In this document: positions 1 through 36,570 of the stretch, in pieces
Position numbering within the stretch: position 1 is the first letter of the stretch
How the letters are laid out: each line of letters opens with the position of its first letter
Source: an uncultured Oscillibacter sp.
Lineage (GTDB): Bacteria; Bacillota; Clostridia; Oscillospirales; Oscillospiraceae
Direction of reading: 5' to 3'
NCBI GenBank assembly: GCA_950097265.1
Contig: CATNDJ010000011.1
Span: 1-43,721 of the forward strand
DNA length: 43,721 nt
Notes under the pieces: model-generated
Database searches by the model: none
What the model was told of the DNA's origin: nothing
Seen by the model: the letters and a program-made list of their open reading frames with translations, nothing else
Program-made: the position numbers and the translations under genes

Positions 1-62
1 CTCAGGCGATGCTGGCCCAGGCCAACGCTGTTCCTCAGGGCGTGCTGCAGCTCCTGGGCTAA
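1..62 (+). CDS. Flagellin, C-terminal end only
   Basis: Reading from base 3, the last 19 codons give QAMLAQANAVPQGVLQLLG followed by TAA at 60-62. This is the typical C-terminal D0 helix of bacterial flagellins (a Q-x-MLAQAN-x-x-x-QGVL-x-LL pattern), which packs in the filament core. The rest of the gene lies before the window. Identification rests on a short but very characteristic motif. The gene sets the context: the following 20 kb of sugar and methyltransferase genes sit directly behind the filament protein, as flagellin glycosylation loci do in Clostridia and Campylobacter. Confidence 0.85.
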   Translation, partial: QAMLAQANAVPQGVLQLLG

Positions 63-195: not shown

Positions 196-2322
196 ATGGA
201 AAAGAAGCCCGTATTGTCCATCGGCATGATTTTCAAAAACGAGACCCGCTGCCTGGAGCGCTGCCTGGAATCCCTCCGGCCCCTGCGGGAGGCGGTGCCC
301 TGCGAGCTCATCATGGCGGACACCGGCTCCACGGACGGGAGCCGGGAAATTGCGGCGCGGTACGCGGACGACCTCTTCGACTTCCCCTGGGTGAACGACT
401 TTTCCGCCGCCCGGAACGCCGTCATGGACCGGGCCTCCGGCGAGTGGTATCTGTCCATCGACGCGGACGAGTGGCTGGACCCGGACGTCCGCCAGCTGCG
501 GCGTCTCTTCAAGGAGGGGCGGAAGCTGGGGGCCGAGGCGGCGGTGCTGGTGGTCCGCAACTACAAAGGGGATCTCCAGGACGGGGCCTATACGGACGTG
601 TTCATCCCCCGTGTCCTGCGGATGGACACCGGGATGCGCTTCGCGGGGGCGATTCACGAGAGCTGGCCCGTGACCAACCAAAACAAGCTGGAGGCCCTGA
701 CGGAAACCATCCTCCACCATGACGGCTACTCCCGGCTGGGGGCGGAGATCGAGGAAGAAAAGCGGGTGCGGAACGTCACCCTGCTCCATCAGGAGCTGGA
801 AAAGGAGCCGGACAGGCTGCTTACCCTCCTCCAGTACATCGAGAGCGGCCAGAAGGAGGAGGACTACGACGAGGTCCTGCGCCGGGCCGTGGCCCTGGTG
901 GAGAAGAGGGCCAAGGGCTGGGAGCGCTGCGGCGCGCCCATTCTGCGCTACGGCGTCATGAGCGCCCAGGGCCGGGATTACCCGGAGCTGGAGCGGTGGC
1001 TTGCCCTGGCGGAGGAGCGGTTCCCGGATTCCTTCTTCACGCTGATCGACGCCCAGGGCGCGGCCTTTGACCACAGCTGGCAGAAGGGGGACTATGCGGA
1101 CTGCATCCGCCGGGGCGAGACGGCCCTGAAGGCCATCGCCGACTACAACGCGGGCCGGGGGGACCAGCTGACGAAGCTGACCAGCGCCATTTTGCTGGCG
1201 GCCCCCCAGCAGGAGGCCTATCTGCGGCTGTTCATGGCGGGGGCCCACATTGAGCTGGGTCACCCGGAGGAGGCCCTGGCGCTGCTGGGCCAACTGGACG
1301 GCGCGGAGCTGAAGCCCCACCGGGTGGAGAACTTTATGGCCGTGCTCCAGCGGGCCCACGCCATGACGGCGGGGGACGACGGGGCCCTGGTGCTGCGGTT
1401 CTGGGAGCGGATCGGCCTTCCCCAGCCGTCGGAGGACCGGGCCCGGGAGCGCCGGGAGGCGTTCACAAAGGTGGCGGCGGGCTGCTTTGACCCGGCGTAT
1501 CTTCAGAAGGAGCAGCGGGACGGCGCGCCCCGCCCCGCCTATACGCTTTACGAGCCTCTGGCGGGGCAGTGCGAGGTGGGAACGGCAGCGGCCGTCCTGG
1601 CGGCGGGAAGCGTGCCGGAGATGGCGGAGCTGCTGGCCCGGGTGGAGAATTGGGCGGCGCTGCCGCCTCTGGCGCTGGAAAAGGCGCTGCTGTCCGGCGT
1701 GTGCTTCCCCCTGGCGGAGCGGCCGCTGAACCTGGAAGAGATGGACGCTCTGGCCTCCGGCCTGGCTCAGGATCCGGGGACGCTGCATAAGCTGCTGAAC
1801 GAGGCGGCGGGAGAGGACTACGCCGGGAGCTGGCAGACCCTGTCCTGGACCCGGGCGCTGGCCCTGGCGGCGGTACAGTCCTTCGGCTGGAAGAACGGCG
1901 GCCAGGAGGGCCTGGCCCTGGCCCGGACCTTCGCCAAGGTGGAGGGGGCCTTCCTCACGGGGTGCTATGCGCCGGAGGTGCTCCGGGAGGGGAACCTGCT
2001 GGTGCTGCCGCCCATGCACCGCTTCGGCTGGTACTGCGCCCAGGCGTTCAACGCTCTGGAGGCGGGGGATTCCATGGGCTATACCCGGCTGCTGCGGGCG
2101 GGGCTGGAGACGAACCCGGCCATGAAGCCCGTGGTGGAGTATCTGGCGGAGCACACGCCGGAGCTGGAGGACACGGGGGCCAGCCCGGAGCTGCTGGCCC
2201 TGGCGGAGAAGGTGCGGACCATGCTGGCGGCCTACCCGGCGGACGACCCGGCGGTGGCGGCGCTGAAGGCGAGCCCGGCCTACCAGCGGGTGGCCTACCT
2301 GATTGAAGGAGACCGGGGATGA
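196..2322 (+). CDS. GT2 glycosyltransferase with long helical C-terminal region, likely flagellin glycosyltransferase
   Basis: The protein has 708 residues. The N-terminal 230 or so residues are a GT-A fold, family GT2 glycosyltransferase: the start VLSIGMIFKNE, the nucleotide-site DTGSTDGS near residue 42, and the metal-binding DxD at D89-A-D91 in IDADEWLD. The remaining part is an Ala/Leu/Glu-rich helical region that looks like degenerate TPR-type repeats, which in related enzymes bind the protein acceptor. It acts in the cytoplasm. Its place directly after flagellin and at the head of the sugar operon suggests it adds the first sugar to flagellin Ser/Thr; that is inference from context. 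The start ATG follows a strong AAAGGAG site. The stop overlaps the next start by ATGA, so the two are translationally coupled. The sugar donor cannot be read from the sequence. Confidence 0.85.
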   Translation: MEKKPVLSIGMIFKNETRCLERCLESLRPLREAVPCELIMADTGSTDGSREIAARYADDLFDFPWVNDFSAARNAVMDRASGEWYLSIDADEWLDPDVRQLRRLFKEGRKLGAEAAVLVVRNYKGDLQDGAYTDVFIPRVLRMDTGMRFAGAIHESWPVTNQNKLEALTETILHHDGYSRLGAEIEEEKRVRNVTLLHQELEKEPDRLLTLLQYIESGQKEEDYDEVLRRAVALVEKRAKGWERCGAPILRYGVMSAQGRDYPELERWLALAEERFPDSFFTLIDAQGAAFDHSWQKGDYADCIRRGETALKAIADYNAGRGDQLTKLTSAILLAAPQQEAYLRLFMAGAHIELGHPEEALALLGQLDGAELKPHRVENFMAVLQRAHAMTAGDDGALVLRFWERIGLPQPSEDRARERREAFTKVAAGCFDPAYLQKEQRDGAPRPAYTLYEPLAGQCEVGTAAAVLAAGSVPEMAELLARVENWAALPPLALEKALLSGVCFPLAERPLNLEEMDALASGLAQDPGTLHKLLNEAAGEDYAGSWQTLSWTRALALAAVQSFGWKNGGQEGLALARTFAKVEGAFLTGCYAPEVLREGNLLVLPPMHRFGWYCAQAFNALEAGDSMGYTRLLRAGLETNPAMKPVVEYLAEHTPELEDTGASPELLALAEKVRTMLAAYPADDPAVAALKASPAYQRVAYLIEGDRG

Positions 2323-3098
2323 AGGTTGTGATTTTGGCCGGAGGCCTTGGCACCCGCATCAGCGAGGAGAGCCACCTGAGGCCCAAGCCCATGATTGAAA
2401 TCGGCGAGCAGCCCATTTTGTGGCATATTATGAAGTACTATTCCGGCTTTGGATTCCACGATTTCGTGATCTGCTGCGGATATAAGGGCCATGTCATCAA
2501 GGAGTACTTCGCGGACTACTACCTGCACCGCTCCGACGTGACCTTCGATTTCTCGGCGGAGAACCGGATGACGGTCCACGCCAACGTGGCGGAGCCCTGG
2601 CGGGTGACCCTGGTGGACACGGGGCTGAACGCCCAGACCGGGGCCCGGGTGAAGCGGGTGCGGAAGTACCTTGGAGACGAGCCCTTTATGCTGACCTACG
2701 GCGACGGGGTCAGCGACGTGGATTTAAACGCCCTCCTGGACCAGCACCGGACCTCGGGCAAGACGGTGACCCTGACGGGCGTCCAGCCCGGCGGGCGCTT
2801 CGGCGTGCTGGACCTGGATGAGGCGGGGACCACCGTTTCCGGCTTCCGGGAGAAGGCCAAGGAGGACGGCGGCTGGATCAACGGCGGCTTCATGGTAATG
2901 GAGCCCGGGGTGTTCGGCTACCTCAGCGAGGACGAGAGCTGCATTCTGGAGCGCCGTCCCCTGGAGACGCTGGCCCGGGAGGGAAAGCTGGGCATTTATA
3001 AGCACCACGGCTTCTGGCAGTGCATGGACACCCAGCGGGACCGGAGCCGGCTGGAGGAGTTTTGGAAGAGCGGCAGGGCCGCATGGAAGAATTGGTGA
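2319..3098 (+). CDS. rfbF: Glucose-1-phosphate cytidylyltransferase
   Basis: The protein is 259 residues, the usual length for this family. It joins CTP and glucose-1-phosphate to make CDP-glucose, the entry to CDP-3,6-dideoxyhexoses. The N-terminal signature GGLGTR (residues 8-13) followed by RPKP (21-24) is the nucleotidyltransferase phosphate loop, and YGDGVSDVD with D129 is the metal-binding region. The wording LRPKPMIEIG and WHIMKYY is specific to the RfbF/DdhA branch rather than to RmlA or GalU. The start is set by GAAGGAGA a few bases upstream and overlaps the previous stop by ATGA. The product feeds the dehydratase encoded immediately downstream. Confidence 0.93.
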   Translation: MKVVILAGGLGTRISEESHLRPKPMIEIGEQPILWHIMKYYSGFGFHDFVICCGYKGHVIKEYFADYYLHRSDVTFDFSAENRMTVHANVAEPWRVTLVDTGLNAQTGARVKRVRKYLGDEPFMLTYGDGVSDVDLNALLDQHRTSGKTVTLTGVQPGGRFGVLDLDEAGTTVSGFREKAKEDGGWINGGFMVMEPGVFGYLSEDESCILERRPLETLAREGKLGIYKHHGFWQCMDTQRDRSRLEEFWKSGRAAWKNW

Positions 3099-3102
3099 GC
3101 GT

Positions 3103-4170
3103 ATGCTGGATTTTTACCGCGGCAAGCGGGTTTTCATCACCGGGCACACAGGGTTCAAGGGCTCCTGGCTGTGCGTGCTGCTGACCCTGGCGGGGGCGGA
3201 GGTCACGGGTTTCGCCCTGCCGCCGCCGGGGGAAGAAAACCTCTTCAGCCTGTCCGGGGTCGGGGAGCGGGTGCGCTCCGTGTTCGGCGACGTCCGGGAC
3301 TTGGCGGCCCTGAAGGCGGCCTTTGACGGAGCCCGGCCGGAAATCGTCTTCCATCTGGCGGCGCAGCCCATTGTCCGGGAGAGCTACCGGGACCCGGTGG
3401 GCACCTATTCCACCAATGTCATGGGGACGGTGCATATTTTGGAGTGCCTGCGGCAGTCCGCCTCCGTCCGGAGCTTTTTGAACGTCACCACGGACAAGGT
3501 GTATCAAAACGAGCAGTGGCCCTGGGGCTACCGGGAGAGCGACCGGCTGAACGGCTTCGACCCCTACTCCAACTCCAAATCCTGTTCCGAGCTGGTGACG
3601 GCGGGCTACCGGAGCAGCTTTTTCTCCGGGGGCCCCACAGCCGTGAGCACGGCCCGGGCAGGGAATGTCATCGGCGGCGGGGACTTCGCGGCGGATCGGA
3701 TCGTCCCGGACTGCGTGCGGGCCGCCCGGGCGGGGCGGCCCATCCAGGTGCGGAACCCCGCCTCCGTCCGGCCCTATCAGCACGTGCTGGACCCCTTGGC
3801 GGCCTATTTGCTGATTGCCCGGAGGCAGTATGAGGACGGGGCTCTGGCGGGGAGCTATAACGTAGGTCCCGAGAGCGGGGACTGCGTTACCACCGGCGCC
3901 CTGGCGGACCTGTTCTGCCGGGCCTGGGGCGAGGGCGCCCGCTGGGAGCACACCGGGGACAGCGGCCCTCACGAGGCGGCGGTCCTGCGGCTGGACTGCT
4001 CCAAGCTCCAGTCGGTCCTGGGCTGGCGGCCCCGCTGGCGGGTGGACCGGGCGGTGGAGGAGACCGTGGCCTGGACGAAGGCGTGGCTCTCCGGCCGGTC
4101 CGTTCCGGCGTTTATGGAAGAGCAGATCCGGGAATTTTTCAGTGAAGAGAAAGGCTGCGGTTTGATATGA
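3103..4170 (+). CDS. rfbG: CDP-glucose 4,6-dehydratase
   Basis: The protein is 355 residues, an extended short-chain dehydrogenase that converts CDP-glucose to CDP-4-keto-6-deoxyglucose using bound NAD. The NAD loop is TGHTGFKG at residues 13-20, the catalytic pair is Y155 and K159 in PYSNSK, and the TTDK motif of sugar-nucleotide dehydratases is present. The strings GTYSTNVMGT, GNVIGGGDFA and RPYQHVLDPL are characteristic of RfbG. It starts 4 bases after rfbF and overlaps rfbH by ATGA, so the three genes are one unit. Confidence is high that the substrate is CDP-glucose because of both the family wording and the neighbour RfbF. Confidence 0.93.
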   Translation: MLDFYRGKRVFITGHTGFKGSWLCVLLTLAGAEVTGFALPPPGEENLFSLSGVGERVRSVFGDVRDLAALKAAFDGARPEIVFHLAAQPIVRESYRDPVGTYSTNVMGTVHILECLRQSASVRSFLNVTTDKVYQNEQWPWGYRESDRLNGFDPYSNSKSCSELVTAGYRSSFFSGGPTAVSTARAGNVIGGGDFAADRIVPDCVRAARAGRPIQVRNPASVRPYQHVLDPLAAYLLIARRQYEDGALAGSYNVGPESGDCVTTGALADLFCRAWGEGARWEHTGDSGPHEAAVLRLDCSKLQSVLGWRPRWRVDRAVEETVAWTKAWLSGRSVPAFMEEQIREFFSEEKGCGLI

Positions 4171-5507
4171 GAGACCCACAGGCGGTCAGGGAGGAGATCC
4201 TGTCCCTCACGGAAGAATATTACCAGGCCCGGTTCGGCCGGGAGGAGCCCTTCCGGCCCGGAGACCGGATTTCCTACGCCGGCCGGGTCTTCGACCAGGC
4301 GGAGCTCCGGGCTTTGGTAGACGCGTCCCTGGACTTCTGGCTTACGGCGGGGCGCTTTACCCGGCAGTTTGAGTCGGGCCTGGCGGAGTACCTGGGGACG
4401 CGGTACTGCTCCCTTGTCAACTCAGGCTCTTCGGCGAACCTCCTGGCCTTCGCCGCCCTGACGTCCCCCCTGCTGGGAGAGCGGCGGATACAAAAGGGGG
4501 ATGAGGTGCTCACCGCCGCTGCGGGCTTTCCCACCACCGTCGCGCCCATCATCCAGTGCGGCGCGGTCCCGGTGTTTGTGGACATTGCGCTGCCCTGGTA
4601 CAACGTGAGCCTGGAGGCCCTGGAACGGGCCCTTTCCCCCAGGACCAGGGCGGTGATGCTGGCCCACACCCTGGGGAACCCTTTCCCGCTGGAGGCGGTG
4701 CGGCGCTTCTGCGACCGGCACGGCCTCTGGCTGGTGGAGGACAACTGCGACGCCCTGGGAACCGAGTGCCTGGTGGACGGCGCGTGGAGAAAGACCGGCA
4801 GCGTGGGGGACCTGGGGACCTCCAGCTTTTACCCGCCCCACCACATCACCATGGGCGAGGGCGGCGCGGTCTGCACCAGCGACCCGCTGCTGCACCGGAT
4901 TGTGAATTCCCTGCGGGACTGGGGCCGGGACTGCTGGTGCCCGCCGGGGCGGGACGACACCTGCGGCTGCCGGTTTCAGGGCCGCTTCGGGGAGCTCCCG
5001 GAGGGCTACGACCATAAATACGTGTATTCTCACCTGGGCTACAACCTGAAGGCCACGGATATGCAGGCCGCCGTGGGCTGCGCCCAGCTGGAGAAGCTGG
5101 ACGGCTTCGTCCGGGCCCGCCGGAGGAACTGGCGGTATCTCCGGGAGGCGCTGGACGGCCTCTCGGACCTGCTGGTCCTGCCGGAGGAAGCGCCGGAGAG
5201 CCGGGCGAGCTGGTTCGGGTTTATGCTGACGGTCCGGGAGGACGCCCCCTTCCGCCGGGAAGAGCTGGTCCGCCATTTGGAGGGGAAGAACGTCCAGACC
5301 CGGAATCTCTTCGCCGGAAACATGCTCCGCCAGCCCTGCTTTGACGGGATGAGAACGTCCGGGGAGAGCTATCGCGTGTCCGGGGAGCTCTGCAATACGG
5401 ACGCGGTGATGGAGAGGAGCTTTTGGATCGGCGTTTACCCCGGCATGACGGAGGAAAAGCTCCGGTACATGGCGGAGGAAATCCGGGCTTTTTCCCGGGA
5501 GAGATAA
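4167..5507 (+). CDS. rfbH: CDP-4-keto-6-deoxyglucose 3-dehydratase (PLP/PMP, iron-sulfur; E1)
   Basis: The protein is 446 residues, DegT/DnrJ/EryC1 fold. The PLP-anchoring lysine of aminotransferases is replaced by histidine in SFYPPHHITMGEGG (H225-H226), as in the E1 dehydratase, which uses PMP to remove the C3 hydroxyl. All four known [2Fe-2S] ligands can be matched: C194 in NCDALG, then C256, C258 and C266 with the same 2 and 8 residue spacing as in Yersinia and Salmonella E1. The family enzyme needs electrons from a flavin/iron-sulfur reductase (E3, RfbI/AscD type), which is not encoded in the window. Product: a CDP-3,6-dideoxy-4-ketohexose. It overlaps rfbG by ATGA. Confidence 0.93.
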   Translation: MRDPQAVREEILSLTEEYYQARFGREEPFRPGDRISYAGRVFDQAELRALVDASLDFWLTAGRFTRQFESGLAEYLGTRYCSLVNSGSSANLLAFAALTSPLLGERRIQKGDEVLTAAAGFPTTVAPIIQCGAVPVFVDIALPWYNVSLEALERALSPRTRAVMLAHTLGNPFPLEAVRRFCDRHGLWLVEDNCDALGTECLVDGAWRKTGSVGDLGTSSFYPPHHITMGEGGAVCTSDPLLHRIVNSLRDWGRDCWCPPGRDDTCGCRFQGRFGELPEGYDHKYVYSHLGYNLKATDMQAAVGCAQLEKLDGFVRARRRNWRYLREALDGLSDLLVLPEEAPESRASWFGFMLTVREDAPFRREELVRHLEGKNVQTRNLFAGNMLRQPCFDGMRTSGESYRVSGELCNTDAVMERSFWIGVYPGMTEEKLRYMAEEIRAFSRER

Positions 5508-5533
5508 AATAAACGCGCATAGGAGGCGCCGTC

Positions 5534-6715
5534 ATGCCGGACGAGTTGATTTGCCTATCCACCCCCAACTTCCGGGGGAACGAAAAAAAGTACGTAGACG
5601 AGGCCGTCGAGACGGAATGGGTCTCCACCGCCGGGTCCTTCATCAGCCGGTTCGAGGAGCGGATGGCCGCCCGGCTGTCCGTGAAGCAGGCGTGCGCCTG
5701 TCAGTCGGGCACGGCGGGGCTCCATCTCTGCCTGCGGCACTTCGGCGTCTCGGCGGGGGATTTGGTGCTGGTTCCCACCCTGACCTTCATCGCCACCGTC
5801 AACGCCGTGATGTACCAGGCCGCAGAGCCGGTGTTTTTTGACTGCGACAGCCATATGTGCATCGACGTGGACCAGGTGGAGGCGTACCTGGAGCGGGAAT
5901 GCCGCCCGGAGGGCGGAAGGACCGTGGAGATTGCCTCCGGCAGGACGGTGAAAGCCGCCGTCCCGGTCCACGTCTTTGGCGACCACTGCGACATGGACCG
6001 CCTGATGGACCTGGCGGAGCGCTATCACCTGGCGGTCATCGAGGACGCCACGGAGTCCCTGGGGGGCGTTTTCGCCCGGGGGCGGTACGCCGGCCGGGCC
6101 ACGGGCACGGCGGGCCACGCCGGGGTCCTGTCCTTTAACGGCAATAAAATCATCACGACGGGCGGCGGCGGGATGGTGGTGTCGGACGACGTCTCGGCGG
6201 TGGAGCACATGCGCTACCTCTCCCAGCAGGCCAAGGACGACCCGGTGTACTTTGTCCACGAGGAGTGGGGCTACAACTACCGCATGACCAATCTCCAGGC
6301 CGCCCTGGGCCTGGCCCAGCTGGAGGAGCTGGACGGCTTCCTGGAGAGCAAGCGCCGGAACTACGCCCGCTACCGGGAGAGGCTGGCGGGTTGTGACTAT
6401 GGGGAGCTGCTGCCCTTCGGGAGTGGGGAGAACTCCAACCACTGGTTTTACTCCTTCGCCCTCCGGGAGCCCGACGGGGCCAGGCGGGACCGGCTGATCC
6501 AATACCTGAGCGCCCGGAATATCCAGGCCCGGCCCATCTGGAAGCTGAACCACACCCAGACGCCCTTCCGGAAGTACCGGGCCATGGACTGCGGAAGGGC
6601 GCAGCGGTTTTATGACCGCGTCGTCAACATCCCCTGCGGCACGAATCTGACGGAGGAGCAGCTGGACCGGGTCTGCCGGGCCCTGCTGGCCTTTGGAGAA
6701 GAGGACCGGGGATAA
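5534..6715 (+). CDS. legC: LegC-family PLP aminotransferase for amino-sugar synthesis
   Basis: The protein is 393 residues, DegT/DnrJ/EryC1 family. The start LICLSTPNFRGNEKKYV followed by WVSTAG is the LegC-type signature (legionaminic-acid route; transfers an amino group to C4 of a nucleotide-linked 4-keto-6-deoxy-GlcNAc). K205 in SFNGNK is the PLP lysine, followed by the TTGGGG turn. The start has AGGAGG upstream in the 26-base gap after rfbH. The partner dehydratase LegB, which would make its substrate, is not in the window. A related role, such as amination of the keto sugar made by RfbG, cannot be excluded, but the NeuB/NeuC/NeuD genes downstream favour legionaminic-type synthesis. Confidence 0.85.
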   Translation: MPDELICLSTPNFRGNEKKYVDEAVETEWVSTAGSFISRFEERMAARLSVKQACACQSGTAGLHLCLRHFGVSAGDLVLVPTLTFIATVNAVMYQAAEPVFFDCDSHMCIDVDQVEAYLERECRPEGGRTVEIASGRTVKAAVPVHVFGDHCDMDRLMDLAERYHLAVIEDATESLGGVFARGRYAGRATGTAGHAGVLSFNGNKIITTGGGGMVVSDDVSAVEHMRYLSQQAKDDPVYFVHEEWGYNYRMTNLQAALGLAQLEELDGFLESKRRNYARYRERLAGCDYGELLPFGSGENSNHWFYSFALREPDGARRDRLIQYLSARNIQARPIWKLNHTQTPFRKYRAMDCGRAQRFYDRVVNIPCGTNLTEEQLDRVCRALLAFGEEDRG

Positions 6716-6737
6716 GAACAGGAAGGGAGGCGGCGGA

Positions 6738-7787
6738 ATGGACGCCGGCAGATATTTGGTCCCGGAAGAGGTCTCCGTCGCCGAGGCGGTGCGGCGCATC
6801 GACGAGGGAAAAAAGAAGGTGGTCTTCTGCCTGCGGGACGGCCGCCTGAGCGGCAGCTTTACCGACGGCGACATGCGCCGCTACATCCTGCGGGACGGGG
6901 ACATGGGAAAGCCCGTCTCTCAGGCCATGAACCCCTCGCCCATTGTCTTTTCCATGCTCCGGGAGGAGGAGGCCCTGGCCTTCATGCGGAGGAGCCTGAC
7001 GGTGGCGGTCCCCATTGTCAACGAGGACCGGGAGGTGGTGAAAATCTACTTCCGGGACGAGCTGGACGGCGCGGAGGCCGTCCGCCCGTTGCCGGAGGAG
7101 GCGCCCCTGGTCATCATGGCCGGGGGGAAGGGGACGCGGCTGTACCCCTACACCCGCGTCCTGCCGAAGCCCCTGATTCCCATTGGCGAGACGCCCATCA
7201 TGGACCACATCATCGGCCGTTTCGGCCGCTATGGCGTCCGGGAGGTTTATCTGATCCTGAACCACAAGCGGAACATGATCAAGGCGTACTACAACGAAGC
7301 GGACCTGCCCTGCCGGATCCACTACGTGGACGAGGAGCAGTTTCTGGGCACCGGCGGGGGGCTGTCCCTCCTGCGGGGAAAGATGAAAGGAACCTTTTTC
7401 CTCTCCAACTGCGACTGCCTGCTGGACGCGGATTATACCTGCATGTACGAGTACCACAAGCAACACGGGAACGCCCTGACCTTCATCCTGGCGGCCAAGC
7501 GGGTGGGCATCCCCTACGGCGTGGTGGACCTGGACCGGGATGGAGCCATCGAGGCGGTGCGGGAAAAGCCGGAGTACGACTTCCTGGTGAATACGGGCAT
7601 TTACCTGGCGGAGCCCAGCGTGGTGGACTGCCTGGAGGACGGGGAGCATATCGACATGCCGGACATCGCCCGGCGGCTGATGGACCGGGGCTTCCGGGTG
7701 GGGGGCTACCCCATCACGGAGAAGAGCTGGCTGGACATGGGCCAGCTCAGCGAGCTGAAAAATATGATGAAAGAATTGGGACTGTGA
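6738..7787 (+). CDS. ptmE: CBS-domain nucleotidyltransferase, PtmE-like
   Basis: The protein is 349 residues. Residues 1-115 hold a CBS pair (DGRLSGSFTDGDMRRYIL is typical), and residues 125-349 a sugar-1-phosphate nucleotidyltransferase with GGKGTRL at 129-135 and LPKPLIPIG. This architecture matches PtmE of Campylobacter jejuni, which makes GDP-glucosamine at the start of the legionaminic pathway. The GDP preference is inferred from family. The start at 6738 was chosen because GGGAGG lies just upstream; a longer reading to 6693 would overlap legC without its own ribosome site. CBS domains usually bind adenine nucleotides, so activity may respond to energy state. Confidence 0.85.
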   Translation: MDAGRYLVPEEVSVAEAVRRIDEGKKKVVFCLRDGRLSGSFTDGDMRRYILRDGDMGKPVSQAMNPSPIVFSMLREEEALAFMRRSLTVAVPIVNEDREVVKIYFRDELDGAEAVRPLPEEAPLVIMAGGKGTRLYPYTRVLPKPLIPIGETPIMDHIIGRFGRYGVREVYLILNHKRNMIKAYYNEADLPCRIHYVDEEQFLGTGGGLSLLRGKMKGTFFLSNCDCLLDADYTCMYEYHKQHGNALTFILAAKRVGIPYGVVDLDRDGAIEAVREKPEYDFLVNTGIYLAEPSVVDCLEDGEHIDMPDIARRLMDRGFRVGGYPITEKSWLDMGQLSELKNMMKELGL

Positions 7788-7813
7788 AGAGGATTCAGGA
7801 GGATTTTTAATTT

Positions 7814-9001
7814 ATGAAAAGCGAAAAAAAGGAGCTGCTGGAGTTTATTAAAACAGAGCGCAACCGCTCCACTGAATTTGTAGGGCAAGCGAGAAACTAT
7901 ACGGGCGACATTTATTTATATGGAGCCGGATATCATCTTTCATTTACCGTGCAGTTTATGCAAAAATATGGCTTGCCTATCAAAGCGATCTTAGACACGA
8001 ACCGCTCGGGCGAATATTACGGAAGCCCTGATAAGGGCTTCCGTAATGGGGATGAAATCCCCATTATAAAGTTTGATCAATTTTTGGCGGAAAGAGATCC
8101 CATGCGCGAGTGTTGGTTTGTAATTGCGGCTCCTTCTGCGGAGGAAAGCATTCGAAAGACCATAGGGCAGCATTTTCCCCAGGCCTGCGTTTTTTCTTTT
8201 GAAGTACAGCTTTATGCAGTTTATTTTGGCTTGGAAGATATTGAGGCGTACCGCACGTATTTGCTGGAGCACAAAGATGAGATCCTTTTGCTGTATGATA
8301 CGCTTGCCGACGATAAGTCCCGTGAAACGCTTGTGTCCGTGTTAAAGGGAAGGCTCTCTGGAGAACTGGCTTATTTTCAAGGGTGCTGTGTCCCGGACCA
8401 ATATTACCCTTCCGATGTTATTCATCTGTCGGAAGGAGAAGTCATGGTCGAACTGGGTTCATATGACGGCGGGACCTTACTGGAGTTTATCCAGCGCTGT
8501 CCGGGTTACCGGGCCGCCTATTGCTTTGAGCCGGATGTGAAGTTGCAGCCCCAGCTTAAGGCTATCGAAAAACAGCAGGCTGCGCAAGGAAAGCAGGTCC
8601 ATGTTATCCCTAAAGGAGCCTGGGATTGCAGCACGGTACTGAACCTTTCCAGCGAAGGAACTTCAAAGGGCAATACCCGCATCCTGGATAGAGGTGAACT
8701 GGAGCGCAGCTACACAATAGAAACCGCGGCGGTAGACGAGGTAGTTACGGAGCCTGTTTCTTACATGAAGATGGATATTGAAGGCGCAGAAATGCGCGCA
8801 CTTCATGGAGCAGAGAAACAAATCCGGGAAAACCATCCGAAGCTGGCGGTATGCGTATATCACAAAAATGAGGATATACTGGAAATCTGGGATTATTTAC
8901 GGAAACTAGTGCCGGAGTATCGATTCTATTTGCGGCATCACACGATGGCTGGAGCGGAAACGGTGCTGTACGCGGTTCCGCAGGATAAAGGAGAAGCATG
9001 A
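7814..9001 (+). CDS. FkbM-family methyltransferase with N-terminal Rossmann-like domain
   Basis: The protein is 395 residues. Residues about 28-140 form a Rossmann-like domain (IYLYGAGYHLSFTVQF, then AILDTNRSG), and residues 215-390 an FkbM-type SAM methyltransferase: MVELGSYDGGT as SAM motif I, YCFEPD, KMDIEGAEMRAL and CVYHKNEDI are family hallmarks. FkbM enzymes O-methylate sugars, so it likely caps or modifies the flagellar glycan; the acceptor is unknown. The N-terminal domain resembles those of the two paired proteins at 17388 and 18915. The gene is clearly richer in A/T than its neighbours on both sides, with many A/T third positions, which suggests separate acquisition. Confidence 0.83.
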   Translation: MKSEKKELLEFIKTERNRSTEFVGQARNYTGDIYLYGAGYHLSFTVQFMQKYGLPIKAILDTNRSGEYYGSPDKGFRNGDEIPIIKFDQFLAERDPMRECWFVIAAPSAEESIRKTIGQHFPQACVFSFEVQLYAVYFGLEDIEAYRTYLLEHKDEILLLYDTLADDKSRETLVSVLKGRLSGELAYFQGCCVPDQYYPSDVIHLSEGEVMVELGSYDGGTLLEFIQRCPGYRAAYCFEPDVKLQPQLKAIEKQQAAQGKQVHVIPKGAWDCSTVLNLSSEGTSKGNTRILDRGELERSYTIETAAVDEVVTEPVSYMKMDIEGAEMRALHGAEKQIRENHPKLAVCVYHKNEDILEIWDYLRKLVPEYRFYLRHHTMAGAETVLYAVPQDKGEA

Positions 9002-9016
9002 AAGGATGATCTTTCC

Positions 9017-10087
9017 GTGAAAGAAATCGCCCTGACAAGGGATTTGCTGAACGCCCATAAGATTTTGTTCCACTACGGGAACATGCTGGGAGACATCGCC
9101 AAAGGGCATACGGATTTTAACCCCGTCGCCATAGAGGTCCACCCCACGGCGGCTTGTAATCACCGCTGCATCCACTGCTCTTATAAGGAGCGGAACGAGA
9201 GCCGGGCTTCCCTTCCCAAGGAATTGATGGACCGCCTGGTAGAGTCCATCATCCGAATGAAGATTCAAGCCGTATACTTCTCCGGCGGAGGTGAGCCGGC
9301 GCTGTATCCCGGGCTGGCGGGATATATCGAGAAGCTGACCGGTAGCGGCGTGGAATGCTCCATTCTCACAAATGGGTCCTGTTTTGAGGAGATGGGCCTG
9401 ATTCCCGTCGCGGACAGGCTAAACTATATAGCGGTTTCTGTGCCGGGAATTGATGAGGCGACGTTTACGGCAATCACAGGCACAAAGAACATGGAGAAGG
9501 TATTAGCGCTGCCGGGCAAAATTAAGGCGGCCCATGGGGACCGCAGTCCGGTGATTGGTTCCCGCATTGTGCTGACGAATAAGAATTACAGGCAGGTTGG
9601 CGATTTCCTGCGGATCATCAAAGAAAGCAGCTTCGATTATGCCCTTTTCAAAGTCGTTCGGGATTACGAGGATAACGGCCAGGGACTTAGCCGCGAGGAA
9701 GAGGCGCACTTGAGAGAAGAGGTCCAAGCTTACAGGGACCTGGACGACCGCTTTACGAATATCAAGGGCATTTTCGGCTACAAGACTCTACCCGAGTTCA
9801 AGGGCGCCTGCTGGGCAAACCGGTACGGCATGCTGGCAAATGTCAGCACGGACGGAAAGGTTTATCCGAACATTGTGGAAATTGATAAAGAGGAATTCTG
9901 CATCGGCGACTTGCGCGAGGAAACGCTGGAGGAAATGTGGAACGGCCCGCGCCACGCCCAGGTGAAAAAGCGCTCCGATGAGAAGTGGGCCGGCGGGGCG
10001 TGCCGGAACTGCCGGGCCATGGCCTACAACGCTATCATCAACGAGTGGATGGAGCGCCTGCCCGCGTATTTCGACCCGTTTATTTGA
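9017..10087 (+). CDS. Radical SAM/SPASM-domain protein
   Basis: The protein is 356 residues. The radical SAM motif CNHRCIHC (C47, C51, C54) binds the [4Fe-4S] cluster that cleaves S-adenosylmethionine, followed by SGGGEP, the SAM-binding glycine stretch. The C-terminal part has further cysteines (GACWANRYG, EEFCIGDL, GGACRNCRA) in a SPASM-like arrangement for an auxiliary cluster, and GDLREETLEEMWNG is typical of such proteins. The start is GTG at 9017 with AAAGGAT upstream. The substrate is unknown. Given its place between a methyltransferase and the thiamine enzyme, sugar or protein modification in the glycan route is plausible but not shown. Confidence 0.85.
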   Translation: MKEIALTRDLLNAHKILFHYGNMLGDIAKGHTDFNPVAIEVHPTAACNHRCIHCSYKERNESRASLPKELMDRLVESIIRMKIQAVYFSGGGEPALYPGLAGYIEKLTGSGVECSILTNGSCFEEMGLIPVADRLNYIAVSVPGIDEATFTAITGTKNMEKVLALPGKIKAAHGDRSPVIGSRIVLTNKNYRQVGDFLRIIKESSFDYALFKVVRDYEDNGQGLSREEEAHLREEVQAYRDLDDRFTNIKGIFGYKTLPEFKGACWANRYGMLANVSTDGKVYPNIVEIDKEEFCIGDLREETLEEMWNGPRHAQVKKRSDEKWAGGACRNCRAMAYNAIINEWMERLPAYFDPFI

Positions 10088-10110
10088 GCGGAGACAGGGG
10101 GGAACAAACC

Positions 10111-11916
10111 GTGAAAGTATCCGACTATATCATCCGCCGCCTGGAGGAGCACGGCGTGAAGGACGTCTTCCTCCTCAGCGGCGGGGGAATGATGCACCTG
10201 CTGGATTCCCTTTTCCGGAGCGAGCTTATCCGCCCCTGGTGTAATCTGCACGAGCAGGCGTCCTCCGTCTGCGCCAGCGCCTACGCCCAGGCCGCCGGAA
10301 GGCTGGGCGTGTGCATGGTGACCTCCGGCCCGGGGGCCGCCAACGCCGTCACCGGCGCGGTGGACGCCTGGATCGACTCGGAGCCGGTGCTGGTGATCTC
10401 CGGCCAGGCCAAGACCTCGGACTTGGTAGGGGACCGGGGGGTCCGCCAGTGCGGCTCTCAGGAAGTCAATATCACCGCCATGATGAAACCCGTCACCAAA
10501 TACGCGGTGAGCGTCACGGACAAGACGATGGTGAAATACCACCTGGACAAGGCCGTCTACCTGGCCACCCATGGCCGCAAGGGGACCGTGTGGGTGGAGG
10601 TGCCCCTGGACGTCCAGGGCGCCCAGGTGGAGGAGAGCGAGCTGGCGGAGTTCGACCCCGCCGCCGAGGGACTGGTCCCCCAACTGCCCCTTTTGGACGA
10701 GGATGTGGACGAGGTCCTGGACCTGCTGAGAGCGGCGAAACGCCCGCTGGTCCTGGCGGGCAAGGGCGTATTGGCCGGCAGGGCCGGGGAACAGCTGCGG
10801 GAGCTCTGCCGCGCGCTGAGGGTTCCGGCGCTGGCCACCTGGTGCGTGAAGACGCTGTTCGGCTATGAGGACGATCTGTTCTTTGGCTTTCCAGGCGGCC
10901 TGGCGCCCCGCTACTCCAATTGGATCCTGCAAACCTGCGACCTCTTGCTGGTCGTGGGCGCGCGGCTGAACCAGACCGTTACGGCGTTCAACGAGCCCCA
11001 TTTCGCCTGCCGGGCCAAGCGGGTCATGGTGGATATTGATCCCAACGAGATCGCCAAACTGGACATGGAGTTCGCCAAGACGCTGGTCTGCGACGCGGCG
11101 GACTTCATCCCCCGCCTGTTGGAGAGGACGGCGGGAAGGGGGCCGCTGGACACGGCCGGCTGGCTGCGCTTCTGCCGGGCGGCGAAGGCCGCTTATCCCG
11201 CTTGGCGGGAGCCTCAGCCCAAGGCGCAGAAGCAGACGAATATGTATTTGTTCGGGCGTGAGCTGTCCCGGCGTGCTCTTTTGGATGATGTGATAGTAGG
11301 CAGCTCCTCTGGCCGGGCCAGCGTTATCCCCGCAATGAGCTATGAATTTAAAAACGGACAGACCGAGGTCTGCCCGTCTGGGCTTGGAAGCATGGGCTTT
11401 GCCGTACCGTCCGCCATCGGCGCTTGTATCGCCTGCGGAAAACGCCGGACAATCGTACTGGAGGGCGACGGCAGTTTGCAGCACAACCTTCAGGAGCTGG
11501 CGCTGATCCGGGGCTATGACCTCCCCATCAAGCTGTTTATCATGAACAACAACGGCTACTCCTCTATTGCGGCGATGCAGGAAAACCATTTTCAAGGCCG
11601 TTATGCCGGATGTGACGGCGCCAGTGGAGTCTGCTCCTGTGATATGAAGAAGCTGGCGGCGCTATACGATCTGCCATACTATGTGATTCGCGGGGACGGC
11701 GATATCGGGCCGGTTCTGGATTTGATTATGGCCGACGATAGAGCGGTACTTTGCGATGTGCTTTGCGATCGTACGTTTGACGAGGTGCCAAGGGCGATGT
11801 CCCGGCTGAACCCGGACGGTTCTATGTCCTCCTCCATGCTGGAGGACCTGTACCCCTTCCTCCCCCGGGAGGAGACGGAGAAATGGCTGCGCATGGGCCT
11901 GGGAGAGAAGCCATGA
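10111..11916 (+). CDS. Thiamine-diphosphate enzyme of acetolactate-synthase fold, possible YerE-like sugar C2-transferase
   Basis: The protein is 601 residues with the three-domain layout of acetolactate synthase. The N-terminal Pyr domain carries E48 in NLHEQAS, the glutamate that activates thiamine, and VTSGPGAANAVTG. The PP domain has GDG (452-454) followed after about 25 residues by NNNGY, the ThDP/Mg site. A GTG start at 10111 is chosen because AGGGGGGAAC precedes it; a longer frame would overlap the radical SAM gene. In Yersinia, YerE is an enzyme of this family that transfers an acetyl unit from pyruvate to CDP-3,6-dideoxy-4-ketohexose. With rfbFGH nearby the same role is attractive, but the sequence alone cannot separate this from other ThDP carboligases or decarboxylases. 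The 3' third looks lower in GC. Confidence 0.8.
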   Translation: MKVSDYIIRRLEEHGVKDVFLLSGGGMMHLLDSLFRSELIRPWCNLHEQASSVCASAYAQAAGRLGVCMVTSGPGAANAVTGAVDAWIDSEPVLVISGQAKTSDLVGDRGVRQCGSQEVNITAMMKPVTKYAVSVTDKTMVKYHLDKAVYLATHGRKGTVWVEVPLDVQGAQVEESELAEFDPAAEGLVPQLPLLDEDVDEVLDLLRAAKRPLVLAGKGVLAGRAGEQLRELCRALRVPALATWCVKTLFGYEDDLFFGFPGGLAPRYSNWILQTCDLLLVVGARLNQTVTAFNEPHFACRAKRVMVDIDPNEIAKLDMEFAKTLVCDAADFIPRLLERTAGRGPLDTAGWLRFCRAAKAAYPAWREPQPKAQKQTNMYLFGRELSRRALLDDVIVGSSSGRASVIPAMSYEFKNGQTEVCPSGLGSMGFAVPSAIGACIACGKRRTIVLEGDGSLQHNLQELALIRGYDLPIKLFIMNNNGYSSIAAMQENHFQGRYAGCDGASGVCSCDMKKLAALYDLPYYVIRGDGDIGPVLDLIMADDRAVLCDVLCDRTFDEVPRAMSRLNPDGSMSSSMLEDLYPFLPREETEKWLRMGLGEKP

Positions 11917-12794
11917 GACGGATTCTGCTGACCGGGGCGGGCCCCCGGGGATTTGTGGGGCGGAACCTGGCCCCTGCTCTGGGGGAGCGGTATGAGGTGT
12001 TCACACCCTCCAGCCGGGAGCTGGACCTCTGCGACTATGATCGGGTAGCCCGATATTTGGAGATGCACCACGTCGATACGGTTATTCACGGCGCCCTGCA
12101 AAGCGTTCTGCACACGGGTCCGGAGGACGTCATGCTCCACGACCTGCAGATGTTTTACAACCTGGAAAAGCTCAGCGCGGGACTGGAGAAGGTGCTGTAT
12201 TTCGGCTCGGGTGCGGAGTTCGACAAGCGGTTCCCCATGGAGAATATCCGGGAGGAGGACCTGGGCCGCTCGGTCCCGGCGGAATACTACGGACTGGAAA
12301 AATACATCATGGCCCTCCGCGCCCGGGAGAGCCGTAACATCTACAACCTGCGCTTGTTCGGCATCTTCGGGAAGTACGAGCACTGGCAGAGCAAGTTTAT
12401 CTCCAACCTCTGCTGCAAGGCCATGTACGGCCTGCCCCTGAGCATCCGCCAGGACTGCATGTTCGACTATCTGTATGTGGAGGACCTGGCCCCCATTGTG
12501 ATTTGGTTTTTGGAGCATGAGCCGGGGCATCACGATTACAACGTCTGCACCGGCCGCCCGGTCTCCCTGCGGGAGATTGCGGACGCGGTGCTGGAGGTCT
12601 CCGGGAAGACGCTGCCCGTGGCGGCGGCGAAGGAGGGCTGGAATCTCCCCTACACCGCGGACAACAGCCGCCTGGCGGCGGAGCTGGGCCCGCTGGAGCT
12701 GCACAGCCTGAAGGACGCGGTAACGGAGCTGTACGCTTACTATCAAACGTGTAAAGCAGAGATCCCATATGATGAATTGAAGGAGACGCGCTGA
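11913..12794 (+). CDS. NAD(P)-dependent epimerase/reductase (extended SDR)
   Basis: The protein is 293 residues. An N-terminal Rossmann fold (TGAGPRGFVGRNL, residues 6-18), a short-chain dehydrogenase serine region (FGSGAEFD) and a YYGLEK motif with the YxxxK catalytic pair mark an extended SDR of the GDP-fucose-synthase/4-ketohexose-reductase type. The NRLF-G-F-GKYE stretch and the DYLYVEDLA motif agree. The start overlaps the stop of the thiamine enzyme by ATGA. Placed straight after a YerE-like gene, it could reduce the branched keto sugar, as YerF does in Yersinia. Alternatives include a 4-keto reductase or 3,5-epimerase of another branch; it does not look like LegB. Confidence 0.78.
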   Translation: MRRILLTGAGPRGFVGRNLAPALGERYEVFTPSSRELDLCDYDRVARYLEMHHVDTVIHGALQSVLHTGPEDVMLHDLQMFYNLEKLSAGLEKVLYFGSGAEFDKRFPMENIREEDLGRSVPAEYYGLEKYIMALRARESRNIYNLRLFGIFGKYEHWQSKFISNLCCKAMYGLPLSIRQDCMFDYLYVEDLAPIVIWFLEHEPGHHDYNVCTGRPVSLREIADAVLEVSGKTLPVAAAKEGWNLPYTADNSRLAAELGPLELHSLKDAVTELYAYYQTCKAEIPYDELKETR

Positions 12795-12808
12795 AAGGAG
12801 CCGCGCTC

Positions 12809-13450
12809 ATGGAAGACATTGTGATCTTAGGTGCGGGCGGGTTTGCAAAAGAGGCGCTCTGGATATTGGAGCGGAACAATGAGTCCCGCAAGGATTGGAA
12901 TATTCTTGGCTTTGTGGATCAAATGAAAACGGAACAGGAGCCGGTGAAGGGGTACGGCGTGATCGGGGATGATGAGTGGTTGCTGCGTTATCCCCACCCT
13001 ATAAATGTGGTCTGCGGATTTGGGAGCCCCGCCTTGAGACGGAAGGTGGTTCAGAAATATAAAGATGAGGCTTATAACGTTACATTTCCAACGCTTATTT
13101 CCAACGGTGCAAATGTCTCGCGTCATGCGCTTTTGCAGGAAGGTTGTGTGATTTGTTCAGGTACGATGGCCGCTCCGAACGTGAAGCTGGGCAGTTTCGT
13201 GATATTGAACCTGAATTGTACCGTTGGACATGATACGGTCATACAGGAATTTAGCGTGGTCAACCCGGGCGCCAACATTTCCGGGAATGTTGTGATAGGA
13301 AACGACAGTGAAATTGGGACGGGCTCTTGCATTATTCAGGGAAAACGCCTTGGACCGGGGACCATTGTTGGGGCTGGGAGCGTTATCATCCGGGATGTTC
13401 CGGGGCATTGTACGGTAGTCGGAAATCCCGGGAGGATTTTGGAGAAATGA
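12809..13450 (+). CDS. neuD: NeuD/LegH/PglD-like sugar acyltransferase
   Basis: The protein is 213 residues. The N-terminus ILGAGGFAKEALWILE is the small Rossmann-like UDP-sugar-binding domain of PglD/NeuD proteins, and residues 85-213 form a left-handed beta-helix of hexapeptide repeats that binds acetyl-CoA. In legionaminic synthesis the homologue (LegH/PtmH) N-acetylates C4 of the amino sugar made by LegC. The AAAGGAG site 9 bases upstream fixes the start. The gene is lower in GC than most neighbours. Its stop overlaps neuB by ATGA. The acyl group could be other than acetyl. Confidence 0.85.
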   Translation: MEDIVILGAGGFAKEALWILERNNESRKDWNILGFVDQMKTEQEPVKGYGVIGDDEWLLRYPHPINVVCGFGSPALRRKVVQKYKDEAYNVTFPTLISNGANVSRHALLQEGCVICSGTMAAPNVKLGSFVILNLNCTVGHDTVIQEFSVVNPGANISGNVVIGNDSEIGTGSCIIQGKRLGPGTIVGAGSVIIRDVPGHCTVVGNPGRILEK

Positions 13451-14448
13451 AAATGAAACCATATATCATTGCCGAGGCGGGGGTCAACCACAACGGAAAC
13501 CTGGGCCTGGCGCTCAAAATGGTGGAGGCGGCCCATGCCGCTGGGGCCGACTGCGTAAAGTTTCAGACGTTTATCGCGGAAAGCGGGGTCTCCCGGTACG
13601 CGGAAAAAGCCGCCTACCAAAAAGAGACCTGCGGGGAAGCGGAGTCCCAGCTGGACATGGTCAAGAAGCTGGAGCTGCCGTTTCCGGATTTCCTGAAGCT
13701 GAAGGCCCGCTGCGACGAGCTGGGCATCGCCTTTTTGTCCACGCCCTTTGATCTGGAGAGCGTGGCCTTCCTGGATACCGTCGGCATGCCCTTCTGGAAG
13801 GTTCCCTCTGGGGAGGCGACGAACCTCCCCTATCTCCTGGCCGTCGCCAGGACGAGAAAGCCGGTGGTCCTGTCTACCGGCATGTGCGAGATGGAGGAGA
13901 TTCGGGGCGCTATGGACGTGCTGCGGGGCGGCGGCACGCCGGAAATCACCCTGCTGCACTGCAACACGGAGTACCCAACACCCTATGGGGACGTGAACCT
14001 CCGGGCCATGGCGGCCATGCGGGAGCGGTTCGGAGTGGACGTGGGCTATTCCGATCACACGCCAGGCATTGAGGTGCCCATCGCGGCGGCGGCCCTGGGG
14101 GCGGTCATTATCGAGAAGCATTTCACCCTGGACCGGAACATGGAGGGCCCTGACCACAAAGCCAGCCTGGAGCCGGAGGAGCTGGCCGCCATGGTGCGGG
14201 CGGTCCGGCACATCGAGGCCGCCCTGGGAGAGGGGGAGAAAAGGGTGAGCCCCTCCGAGGCGAGGAACCGGGACATTGCCCGGAAGAGCCTGACGGCCCG
14301 CCGGGCCATTAAAAAGGGCGAGGTGTTTACGGAAGAAAACCTCACCGTCAAACGCCCCGGCGTCGGCGTCAGTCCCATGAGGTGGTTCGAGGTCCTGGGG
14401 ACCCGGGCGAAGCGGGATTTTGAGGAAGACGAGAGGATCGAGCTTTGA
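13447..14448 (+). CDS. neuB: Nonulosonic acid synthase (NeuB/LegI family)
   Basis: The protein is 333 residues. It condenses a manno-configured amino sugar with phosphoenolpyruvate to give a nine-carbon acid (sialic, legionaminic or pseudaminic type). The TIM-barrel signature is clear: IIAEAGVNHNGNL at the start, KFQTF, STPFD, STGMC, YSDHT, EKHFTLDR and GPDH with the metal and PEP ligands. Residues 275-333 are a SAF/antifreeze-like domain (ARKSLTARRAIKKGE). The adjacent NeuC, which makes a free ManNAc-type sugar, points to a sialic or legionaminic product rather than pseudaminic. An in-frame ATG two codons later is an equally possible start. Confidence 0.92.
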   Translation: MKMKPYIIAEAGVNHNGNLGLALKMVEAAHAAGADCVKFQTFIAESGVSRYAEKAAYQKETCGEAESQLDMVKKLELPFPDFLKLKARCDELGIAFLSTPFDLESVAFLDTVGMPFWKVPSGEATNLPYLLAVARTRKPVVLSTGMCEMEEIRGAMDVLRGGGTPEITLLHCNTEYPTPYGDVNLRAMAAMRERFGVDVGYSDHTPGIEVPIAAAALGAVIIEKHFTLDRNMEGPDHKASLEPEELAAMVRAVRHIEAALGEGEKRVSPSEARNRDIARKSLTARRAIKKGEVFTEENLTVKRPGVGVSPMRWFEVLGTRAKRDFEEDERIEL

Positions 14449-14462
14449 GAGGGGAGGACAAA

Positions 14463-34707: not shown

Positions 34708-34711
34708 GCGC

Positions 34712-34924
34712 TCAGTCCCAATTGATGGCGTTTTCGGCCACGTACTCCCCGGCTTCCAATTCACGGGCGGCGAGCTCCATAGCGGCGTGCTCCGCGGGCG
34801 TGGCCTTCGTGTAATCAGGGTCCCAGGCCAGGACCAGCTTTTTCACCAGCTCCAGGGCAAGCGCTTGGTCCGCTTCCGGCAGGATATTGACCATCTGTGC
34901 GATTTGCTGTGCGATTGGCGCCAT
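34712..34924 (-). CDS. Antitoxin of a RelE-type toxin-antitoxin pair
   Basis: The protein is 70 residues, acidic, with a helical start (QQIAQMVNILPEADQALALELVKKL) and an ending AARELEAGEYVAENAINWD typical of small Firmicute antitoxins paired with RelE-like toxins. It should wrap the toxin and block it, and probably represses the operon, although no clear DNA-binding motif is seen. AAGGAGG precedes the ATG. It lies 13 bases after the toxin stop, so the toxin comes first. Confidence 0.78.
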   Translation of the reverse strand: MAPIAQQIAQMVNILPEADQALALELVKKLVLAWDPDYTKATPAEHAAMELAARELEAGEYVAENAINWD

Positions 34925-34937
34925 ACTTAAGCCCTCC

Positions 34938-35201
34938 TTACTTCTTGTAGATGTCTCCCCTGCTTCCTATATCCATGATATACAGGATTTCCAGCTGACT
35001 TTCCACCCCATATCTGTAAACGATTCTATATTTCCCCACACGGAGCCGGAAGCGCCCGTCATGGTACCCCTGCATAGCCTTGATATCACCCAGGGGCGGC
35101 TTTTGTGTCAGCCCGTGGATTCCGGCCCGTATGCGGGCTTTGGTAGGCCTGTCCAGGCTCTCCAACGCCTTTACGGCGGATTTCGCATATCTGATTTCCA
35201 T
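34938..35201 (-). CDS. relE: RelE/ParE-superfamily toxin
   Basis: The protein is 87 residues. YAKSAVKALESLDRPTKARI, then GDIKAMQGYHDGRFRLRVGKYRIVYRY and the end LEILYIMDIGSRGDIYK follow the RelE fold: KYRIVYR and GxRGDIYK are the usual conserved ends. RelE members cut mRNA on the ribosome. Whether this copy is a ribonuclease or a ParE-like gyrase poison cannot be decided from sequence alone, though the R-x-G-K-Y-R-I-x-Y pattern favours RelE. AAAGGAG precedes the ATG, right after a leader hairpin (35220-35242). Confidence 0.85.
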   Translation of the reverse strand: MEIRYAKSAVKALESLDRPTKARIRAGIHGLTQKPPLGDIKAMQGYHDGRFRLRVGKYRIVYRYGVESQLEILYIMDIGSRGDIYKK

Positions 35202-35219
35202 TGGGACGGCTCCTTTCCT

Positions 35220-36238: not shown

Positions 36239-36262
36239 CCCATAACCCCCTCTCATGCAAAT

Positions 36263-36357: not shown

Positions 36358-36371
36358 ACGGAGGTGAAACT

Positions 36372-36569: not shown

Positions 36570-36570
36570 C

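Follow-up and report, generated by a model that had tools for sequence, protein, structure and literature searches.

The first 43.7 kb of the 64,397-bp contig C11 (CATNDJ010000011.1) from an uncultured Oscillibacter sp. genome (GCA_950097265.1; 91.5% complete), hereafter the window (43,721 nucleotides), probably contain a flagellin glycosylation island with a yersiniose-type branch pathway, the enzyme chemistry of which is predicted. In this pathway, a YerE-like thiamine diphosphate (ThDP) enzyme would add a carbon branch to a cytidine diphosphate (CDP)-bound 3,6-dideoxy-4-ketohexose formed by the products of rfbF, rfbG, and rfbH, after which a short-chain dehydrogenase/reductase (SDR) would reduce the branch. 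Taken overall, a variant of the yersiniose pathway with predicted chemistry is well supported. The features on which this rests are:

3..62, + strand: C-terminus of a flagellin, last 19 codons plus stop, the gene being cut by the contig start; translation QAMLAQANAVPQGVLQLLG, then stop
196..2322, + strand: family-2 glycosyltransferase (Pfam Glycos_transf_2), probable flagellin glycosyltransferase, with a homologue at the same place in the congeneric loci L050 and L052
2319..3098, + strand: rfbF/ddhA, glucose-1-phosphate cytidylyltransferase (TIGR02623; 392 bits, cut-off 300)
3103..4170, + strand: rfbG/ddhB, CDP-glucose 4,6-dehydratase (TIGR02622; 440 bits, cut-off 278)
4167..5507, + strand: rfbH/ddhC (E1), CDP-4-keto-6-deoxyglucose 3-dehydrase (NF011936; 701 bits, cut-off 423)
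10111..11916, + strand: YerE-like ThDP enzyme, proposed to acyl-branch CDP-3,6-dideoxy-4-ketohexose at C-4
11913..12794, + strand: SDR reductase (extended SDR by Pfam) with a proposed YerF-like role, reduction of the keto group in the added branch

The ThDP enzyme and its coupling to RfbH

A first line of evidence concerns the ThDP enzyme itself. It contains all three Pfam TPP domains (N, M, and C), which is the architecture of the decarboxylase superfamily. The catalytic Glu48, the GDG motif (residues 452-454), and Asn480 are intact (residue check on 25 rows), as a first-pass annotation of the same DNA had read from the sequence. When compared with NCBIfam, no family scored above its cut-off among the best 25 of 54, the top one being acetolactate synthase (TIGR00118; 319 versus 538 bits). 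The nearest PDB relative, both by sequence and by fold, was the YerE-like enzyme JanthE (only matches with alignments longer than 480 residues were kept). In the tree of the YerE-like branch, which comprised 21 of the 48 rows of a larger ThDP tree, JanthE, the window enzyme, and further YerE-like sequences, 16 rows in all, were placed on one side of a branch with a support of 100/100, apart from acetolactate synthases and glyoxylate carboligase. A clade of the Bacillota ThDP enzymes with acetolactate synthases was rejected by an approximately unbiased (AU) test (p 4.3e-5); a separate AU test (p 0.146), concerning where the outgroup joins, used a constrained clade that is compatible with the YerE-like clade. 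The grouping with IlvB that the first-pass annotation had named as contrary evidence was hence not obtained. Two other ThDP proteins of the same genome did group with the acetolactate synthases of E. coli (support 88 in the 48-row tree). A ThDP fragment of the same genome (L004; 244 aa) was removed before the trees were built; these trees were made without phosphonopyruvate and sulfopyruvate decarboxylases and had JanthE as their sole characterised YerE-like member. These sequence comparisons support assignment of the window protein as a YerE-like enzyme, not an acetolactate synthase, and the joining of an alpha-keto acid to a ketosugar is proposed as its reaction.

Secondly, the genes for the presumptive substrate were all retrieved, rfbF, rfbG, and rfbH scoring above the curated (equivalog) NCBIfam cut-offs at the places where the first-pass annotation had put them. 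The best PDB chains for RfbH were the E1 structures 3bcx and 3bb8. Likewise in agreement with that annotation, the catalytic residues of RfbH are intact: two successive histidines occupy the lysine site of the aminotransferases, and His225 and four aligned cysteines, which we take to be the ligands of the 2Fe-2S cluster, were conserved in 21/21 rows (more than 45% identity and more than 400 aa).

Thirdly, the ThDP enzyme and RfbH occur together across genomes. In a class sample of 391 genomes, a ThDP relative (E<=1e-90) was found in 31 and RfbH in 36; with the own genome excluded, RfbH was present in 26/30 genomes with the ThDP enzyme versus 9/360 without it (Fisher p 7e-29). The two matches were within 10 kb of each other in 13 of those 26 (with less than 30 bp between match ends in four of the 13), 20 and 50 kb apart in two, and on different contigs in 11. 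Among 148 nearer relatives, the numbers were 3/6 versus 6/142 (p 0.003). In a named set of genomes, searched for RfbH and flagellin without those of L034, L035, L036, L039, L040, and L047, RfbH scored above the cut-off in 28/30 (own genome included), as opposed to 0/14 controls, and was situated within 20 kb of the ThDP gene in 21 of the 30. Similarly, at least one of rfbF, rfbG, and rfbH adjoined the ThDP gene closely in many of 35 loci; these loci came from a genome scan for which two peptide patterns had been derived from the window's ThDP family and are thus kin to the window by construction (a homologue set, A1, of 12 was taken from 120 listed among 4626 homologues). An uninterrupted run of ThDP-SDR-rfbF-rfbG-rfbH was found in Paenibacillus ferrarius (L019) and in Brevibacillus migulae (L034). 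The joining of the rfb genes and the ThDP enzyme into one route, which was the weak point of the first-pass annotation, is now the strongest part of the case, being backed by both co-occurrence and closeness elsewhere. YerE-like enzymes were also carried by the Pelagibacteraceae loci L036, L039-L041, and L047. In L041, the sole genome of this family that was searched, no RfbH above the cut-off was found (best 307 bits), so that the substrate of the Pelagibacteraceae enzyme may be another ketosugar.

Lastly, the SDR gene directly follows the ThDP gene, its ATG overlapping the TGA stop, as the first-pass annotation had it. A relative was found in 18 of the 22 loci of the window's ThDP clade (L014-L035), directly 3' of the ThDP gene in 12 of them, and the YxxxK motif was conserved in 19/20 rows (more than 38% identity and more than 250 aa; two genomes counted twice, L014/L049 and L015/L051). 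The AlphaFold model of the SDR (predicted local distance difference test score, pLDDT, 92.7) was nearest to GDP-fucose synthases, which are NADP-dependent nucleotide-sugar keto-reductases. The model hence fits such an enzyme and would suit reduction at C-4 as well as in the branch.

Flagellin context and proposed pathway

The 19 residues QAMLAQANAVPQGVLQLLG encoded at the contig start also form, without a difference, the C-terminal end of the full flagellins of two congeners (L050 and L052; both flagellin domains found by Pfam in that of L050) and of a second flagellin of the same genome, on contig C7. The order flagellin, glycosyltransferase, rfbF was the same in both congeners as in the window, the distance from the flagellin stop to the glycosyltransferase being 133 bp in the window and 117 and 91 bp in the congeners. 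Thus, the sugar and glycosyltransferase genes adjoin flagellin and do not form an O-antigen locus. Among the 22 loci of the window's ThDP clade, flagellin was found within 20 kb in nine (L014, L015, L019, L023, L028, L029, L030, L031, and L034; a raw count, without chance rate). In Brevibacillus migulae, the gene set is located between flagellin and fliD: genes for FliW, flagellin, glycosyltransferases, a Polysacc_synt_2 (PseB-type) dehydratase, the ThDP enzyme, and the SDR are followed by rfbF, rfbG, rfbH, and genes for an RmlD-type SDR, NeuB, FlaG, and FliD. The flagellin setting of the first-pass annotation is supported by the flagellins near related loci and, in the window itself, by the C-terminal flagellin codons. 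This supports the interpretation of the cluster as a flagellin glycosylation island, from which we infer that the sugar is attached to flagellin.

The pathway may be envisaged as follows. RfbF would form CDP-glucose and RfbG would convert it into CDP-4-keto-6-deoxyglucose. RfbH (E1) would then take off the C-3 hydroxyl group, giving CDP-3,6-dideoxy-4-ketoglucose, with electrons from a ferredoxin or flavodoxin system of the host. The ThDP enzyme would decarboxylate an alpha-keto acid, of which pyruvate is the simplest candidate, and add the two-carbon unit to the C-4 ketone, resulting in a tertiary alcohol with an acetyl branch, which the SDR would turn into a 1-hydroxyethyl group. Finally, the family-2 glycosyltransferase beside flagellin would place the sugar on the filament, perhaps together with a legionaminic-type sugar from the adjoining genes.

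Alternative readings and neighbouring genes

Several observations weigh against this yersiniose-type pathway and are considered here with the alternatives that they favour. Two of them concern RfbH. No RfbH above the cut-off was found in 4/30 ThDP genomes of the class sample and in 2/30 of the named set. Furthermore, no relative of E3 (ddhD), the usual reductase partner of RfbH, was found in the own genome at E 0.001, with one L048 protein as single query and 91.5% of the genome represented, so that E3 is likely, though not certainly, absent from it. This query found no relative in nine more of the 21 genomes searched either, and near-full-length matches only in G171, G175, and G176. Of three beta-proteobacterial loci, L042 and L048 had an E3-type reductase upstream of rfbF (with Fer2, FAD, and NAD domains in L048), and a reductase of different domain order adjoined rfbF in Pedobacter (L045). 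As a relative of the usual partner was not found, the window RfbH probably draws on another electron donor, for which a host ferredoxin or flavodoxin is proposed.

The alternative that survives best, although it is unlikely, is that the same enzymes make another sugar, either because a longer alpha-keto acid is used, as by ErwE, or because the SDR reduces C-4, which would yield an erwiniose-like or an unbranched paratose- or abequose-like flagellin sugar. The literature consulted here consisted of open-licence papers. According to these, YerE-like enzymes, of which JanthE, YpYerE, and ErwE have been tested, vary widely in their donors (PMC12247030). The window enzyme shares only 33% identity with JanthE, and at none of the eight JanthE pocket positions listed in PMC12188165 does it have the same residue; two of the changes are conservative (Y297 to F and K567 to R), the other six being V121 to S, Y268 to L, P293 to T, H494 to A, S498 to N, and F564 to E. 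Similarly, the nearest folds of the SDR are C-4 keto-reductases, which are compatible with an unbranched dideoxyhexose too, and for one Clostridium strain, formation of paratose by RfbF, RfbG, RfbH, and RfbS has been predicted from its flagellin island (PMC13317340). On the other hand, no donor-building gene was seen in the window's cluster, unlike in Paucibacter (L048), where a galactarate/altronate-type dehydratase gene is located beside the ThDP gene and a mannitol-dehydrogenase-like one is present as well (8372-9904 and 11803-12930), and in Pedobacter (L045), where genes for an acetaldehyde dehydrogenase and a DmpG-type (4-hydroxy-2-oxovalerate-type) aldolase adjoin it (11778-13674). Pyruvate is therefore favoured as donor in the window, and pyruvate and CDP-3,6-dideoxy-4-ketoglucose are the substrates of YpYerE (PMC12247030); genes adjoining YerE-like enzymes may predict the branch length. 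The SDR (E<=1e-30) also argues against an unbranched product, as it was absent from 15/15 RfbH genomes without the ThDP enzyme. Its presence in only 6/34 ThDP genomes weighs against the proposed pathway; together, these numbers indicate that the SDR belongs to the window's own ThDP clade and is dispensable in ThDP clades further removed.

A less probable alternative is that the branched sugar is destined for another surface polymer, such as a wall polysaccharide or a capsule, with flagellin as an incidental neighbour. In nine of the 22 loci, flagellin was located on another contig, the genome of L035 being outside the search, and of the 20 genomes searched from the window's ThDP clade, three had no flagellin match (L016, L024, and L027), indicating that the pathway also occurs apart from flagella. 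In L024 and L027, family-2 glycosyltransferases and large membrane-protein-like open reading frames (ORFs) were seen nearby by eye. In contrast, the short distance between flagellin and the first glycosyltransferase in the window and both congeners, as well as the cluster between flagellin and fliD in Brevibacillus migulae, argue for the filament as destination.

A third alternative, improbable, is that the ThDP enzyme and the SDR serve a neighbouring nonulosonate (legionaminic-type) route instead of the RfbH product. The genes concerned and those between them are:

5534..6715, + strand: LegC-family aminotransferase, co-located legionaminic-type route, outside the branched-sugar path (TIGR04181; 444 bits, cut-off 420)
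6738..7787, + strand: CBS domain plus nucleotidyltransferase (Pfam NTP_transferase and CBS), same legionaminic-type route
7814..9001, + strand: FkbM-family methyltransferase (PF05050), possible glycan decoration
9017..10087, + strand: radical S-adenosylmethionine (SAM)/SPASM protein (PF04055 and PF13186)
12809..13450, + strand: NeuD/PglB-family sugar acetyltransferase, co-located nonulosonate route (TIGR03570; 205 bits, cut-off 161)
13447..14448, + strand: NeuB-family synthase, co-located nonulosonate route (TIGR03569; 492 bits, cut-off 400)
14445..15653, + strand: NeuC-family 2-epimerase/hydrolase, co-located nonulosonate route (TIGR03568; 426 bits, cut-off 236)

The first-pass annotation had counted four unrelated genes between rfbH and the ThDP gene. 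Four genes are indeed present, but LegC and the nucleotidyltransferase, presumably PtmE-like, fit a legionaminic acid route. A NeuB-family gene was found in 21 of the 22 loci L014-L035, and no LegB dehydratase above the cut-off was found in the own genome, despite the legionaminic-type set (5534-7787 and 12809-15653), which leaves this route incompletely explained. Across the class, however, the association of NeuB with the ThDP enzyme is weak (10/30 versus 58/360; p 0.02), against 26/30 versus 9/360 for RfbH. Moreover, loci L038, L042-L046, and L048 (Bacteroidota, Verrucomicrobiota, and beta-proteobacteria) carried the ThDP and rfb genes with no NeuB match in the stretch examined. Finally, that an ordinary acetolactate synthase (IlvB/AlsS) or another housekeeping ThDP enzyme came to lie in the operon by chance is scarcely credible and already disfavoured: acetolactate synthase ranks first among the family models, but at 319 of 538 bits and with no family above its cut-off, sequence, fold, and tree all place the enzyme closer to JanthE, the acetolactate synthase clade is rejected by the AU test, and two other ThDP proteins from the genome fall with those synthases.

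Among the remaining neighbours, radical SAM proteins recur near the sugar clusters as different genes (L014, 12710-13774; L023, 7893-9521; L029, 15112-16164), the assignment being by Pfam for the window and L014 and by eye from the sequence start for the others. The window protein had an 84% identical neighbour in L015 and a different one in L014, both of which are loci labelled uncultured Oscillibacter. Two ORFs with similar N-termini (17388-18863 and 18915-20483) had no NCBIfam or Pfam match and weak relatives in the glycan loci L022 and L032. Further downstream, an ORF similar to the alpha subunit of indolepyruvate:ferredoxin oxidoreductase (29406-31289) scored under the cut-off (558 of 651 bits). 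The end of the window (33502-43721) is occupied by an integrated element or prophage, with an integrase and a D5-like primase by Pfam and a tape-measure-like ORF (40401-42635) recognised by eye, without Pfam match.

Comparison with known systems

For the wider proposition that a Bacillota-centred YerE-like clade, with its paired SDR and without E3, makes C-4-branched 3,6-dideoxyhexoses for flagellin, often beside a nonulosonate route, the chances seem about even. If it is true, both a YerE-type branching pathway in the Bacillota and a flagellum with a branched dideoxy sugar would be described for the first time, as far as the open-licence literature extends, an in silico survey of more than 200 YerE-like enzymes (Krug et al. 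2024, cited in PMC12247030) being outside that scope. RfbH chemistry would then be driven by another electron donor, which raises the question of how the enzyme functions when its customary reductase is missing. The occurrence of the route next to flagellin across the Bacillota predicts a new type of flagellin glycan and a testable source for unassigned flagellin masses, and it offers many uncharacterised ketone-branching ThDP enzymes to biocatalysis. In addition, the SDR becomes a candidate enzyme for a ketoreduction in yersiniose biosynthesis that was called uncharacterised in 2016 (PMC4753412).

The first-pass annotation had considered such a sugar new on a Gram-positive flagellum. This view can be kept for the branch, as the open-licence search yielded no paper joining yersiniose, a branched-chain sugar, or acetolactate synthase with flagellin, but not for the dideoxyhexose, as paratose or another 3,6-dideoxyhexose has already been predicted on Clostridium flagellins (PMC13317340, 2026). 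The Clostridium islands resemble the window in that flagellin of a Bacillota member is accompanied by family-2 glycosyltransferases and by genes for a CDP-3,6-dideoxyhexose; they differ in that the predicted sugar is unbranched and no ThDP step is described, the words thiamine, acetolactate, and pyruvate not occurring in the main text of that paper. Tetratricopeptide repeat (TPR) glycosyltransferases are also named in that paper (PMC13317340). Pfam found no TPR repeat in the window's glycosyltransferase (196..2322). Genes for CDP-4-keto-6-deoxyglucose have been reported from the flagellin islands of four enterobacterial strains (PMC4875605). The main text on Geobacillus flagellin islands mentions neither thiamine nor acetolactate (PMC5109656), and PMC11004494 and PMC12310338 yielded no statement about a branched flagellin sugar.

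According to the open-licence literature, sugars branched by YerE-like enzymes occur in Gram-negative O-antigens and mycobacterial glycolipids, whereas antibiotic sugars are branched by other enzymes. The mycobacterial enzymes MMAR_2332 and MygE (caryophyllose and gastriose; PMC12247030) are, by description, like the window enzyme in performing YerE-like branching outside the Gram-negatives, so that this class is not confined to the latter, although their sugars belong to surface glycolipids and not to flagellin. In Gram-positive antibiotic producers, AviB1/AviB2 places an acetyl branch on a 4-ketosugar (PMC4753412, PMC12247030), but it is a complex of the alpha-ketoacid dehydrogenase type, whereas the window encodes a single decarboxylase-type protein. 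JanthE of Janthinobacterium sp. HH01 (PDB 8rph, 8rpi, and 8rpj), a tested ketone-accepting YerE-like enzyme (PMC12188165, PMC12247030), is the closest solved enzyme, although, besides the identity and pocket differences given above, it has a CDG motif where the window enzyme has GDG. The closest pathway is that of yersiniose A in Yersinia pseudotuberculosis and in Pseudomonas O-antigen loci, one of which contains homologues of ddhA-D, yerE, and yerF (PMC4509608). The window differs from it in that no ddhD (E3) relative was found and the SDR is, by its position, a candidate YerF. As in the yersiniose A pathway, equivalents of ddhA-C, a YerE-like ThDP enzyme gene, and a reductase gene are united in one cluster, which in this Bacillota genome is set beside flagellin instead of in an O-antigen locus.

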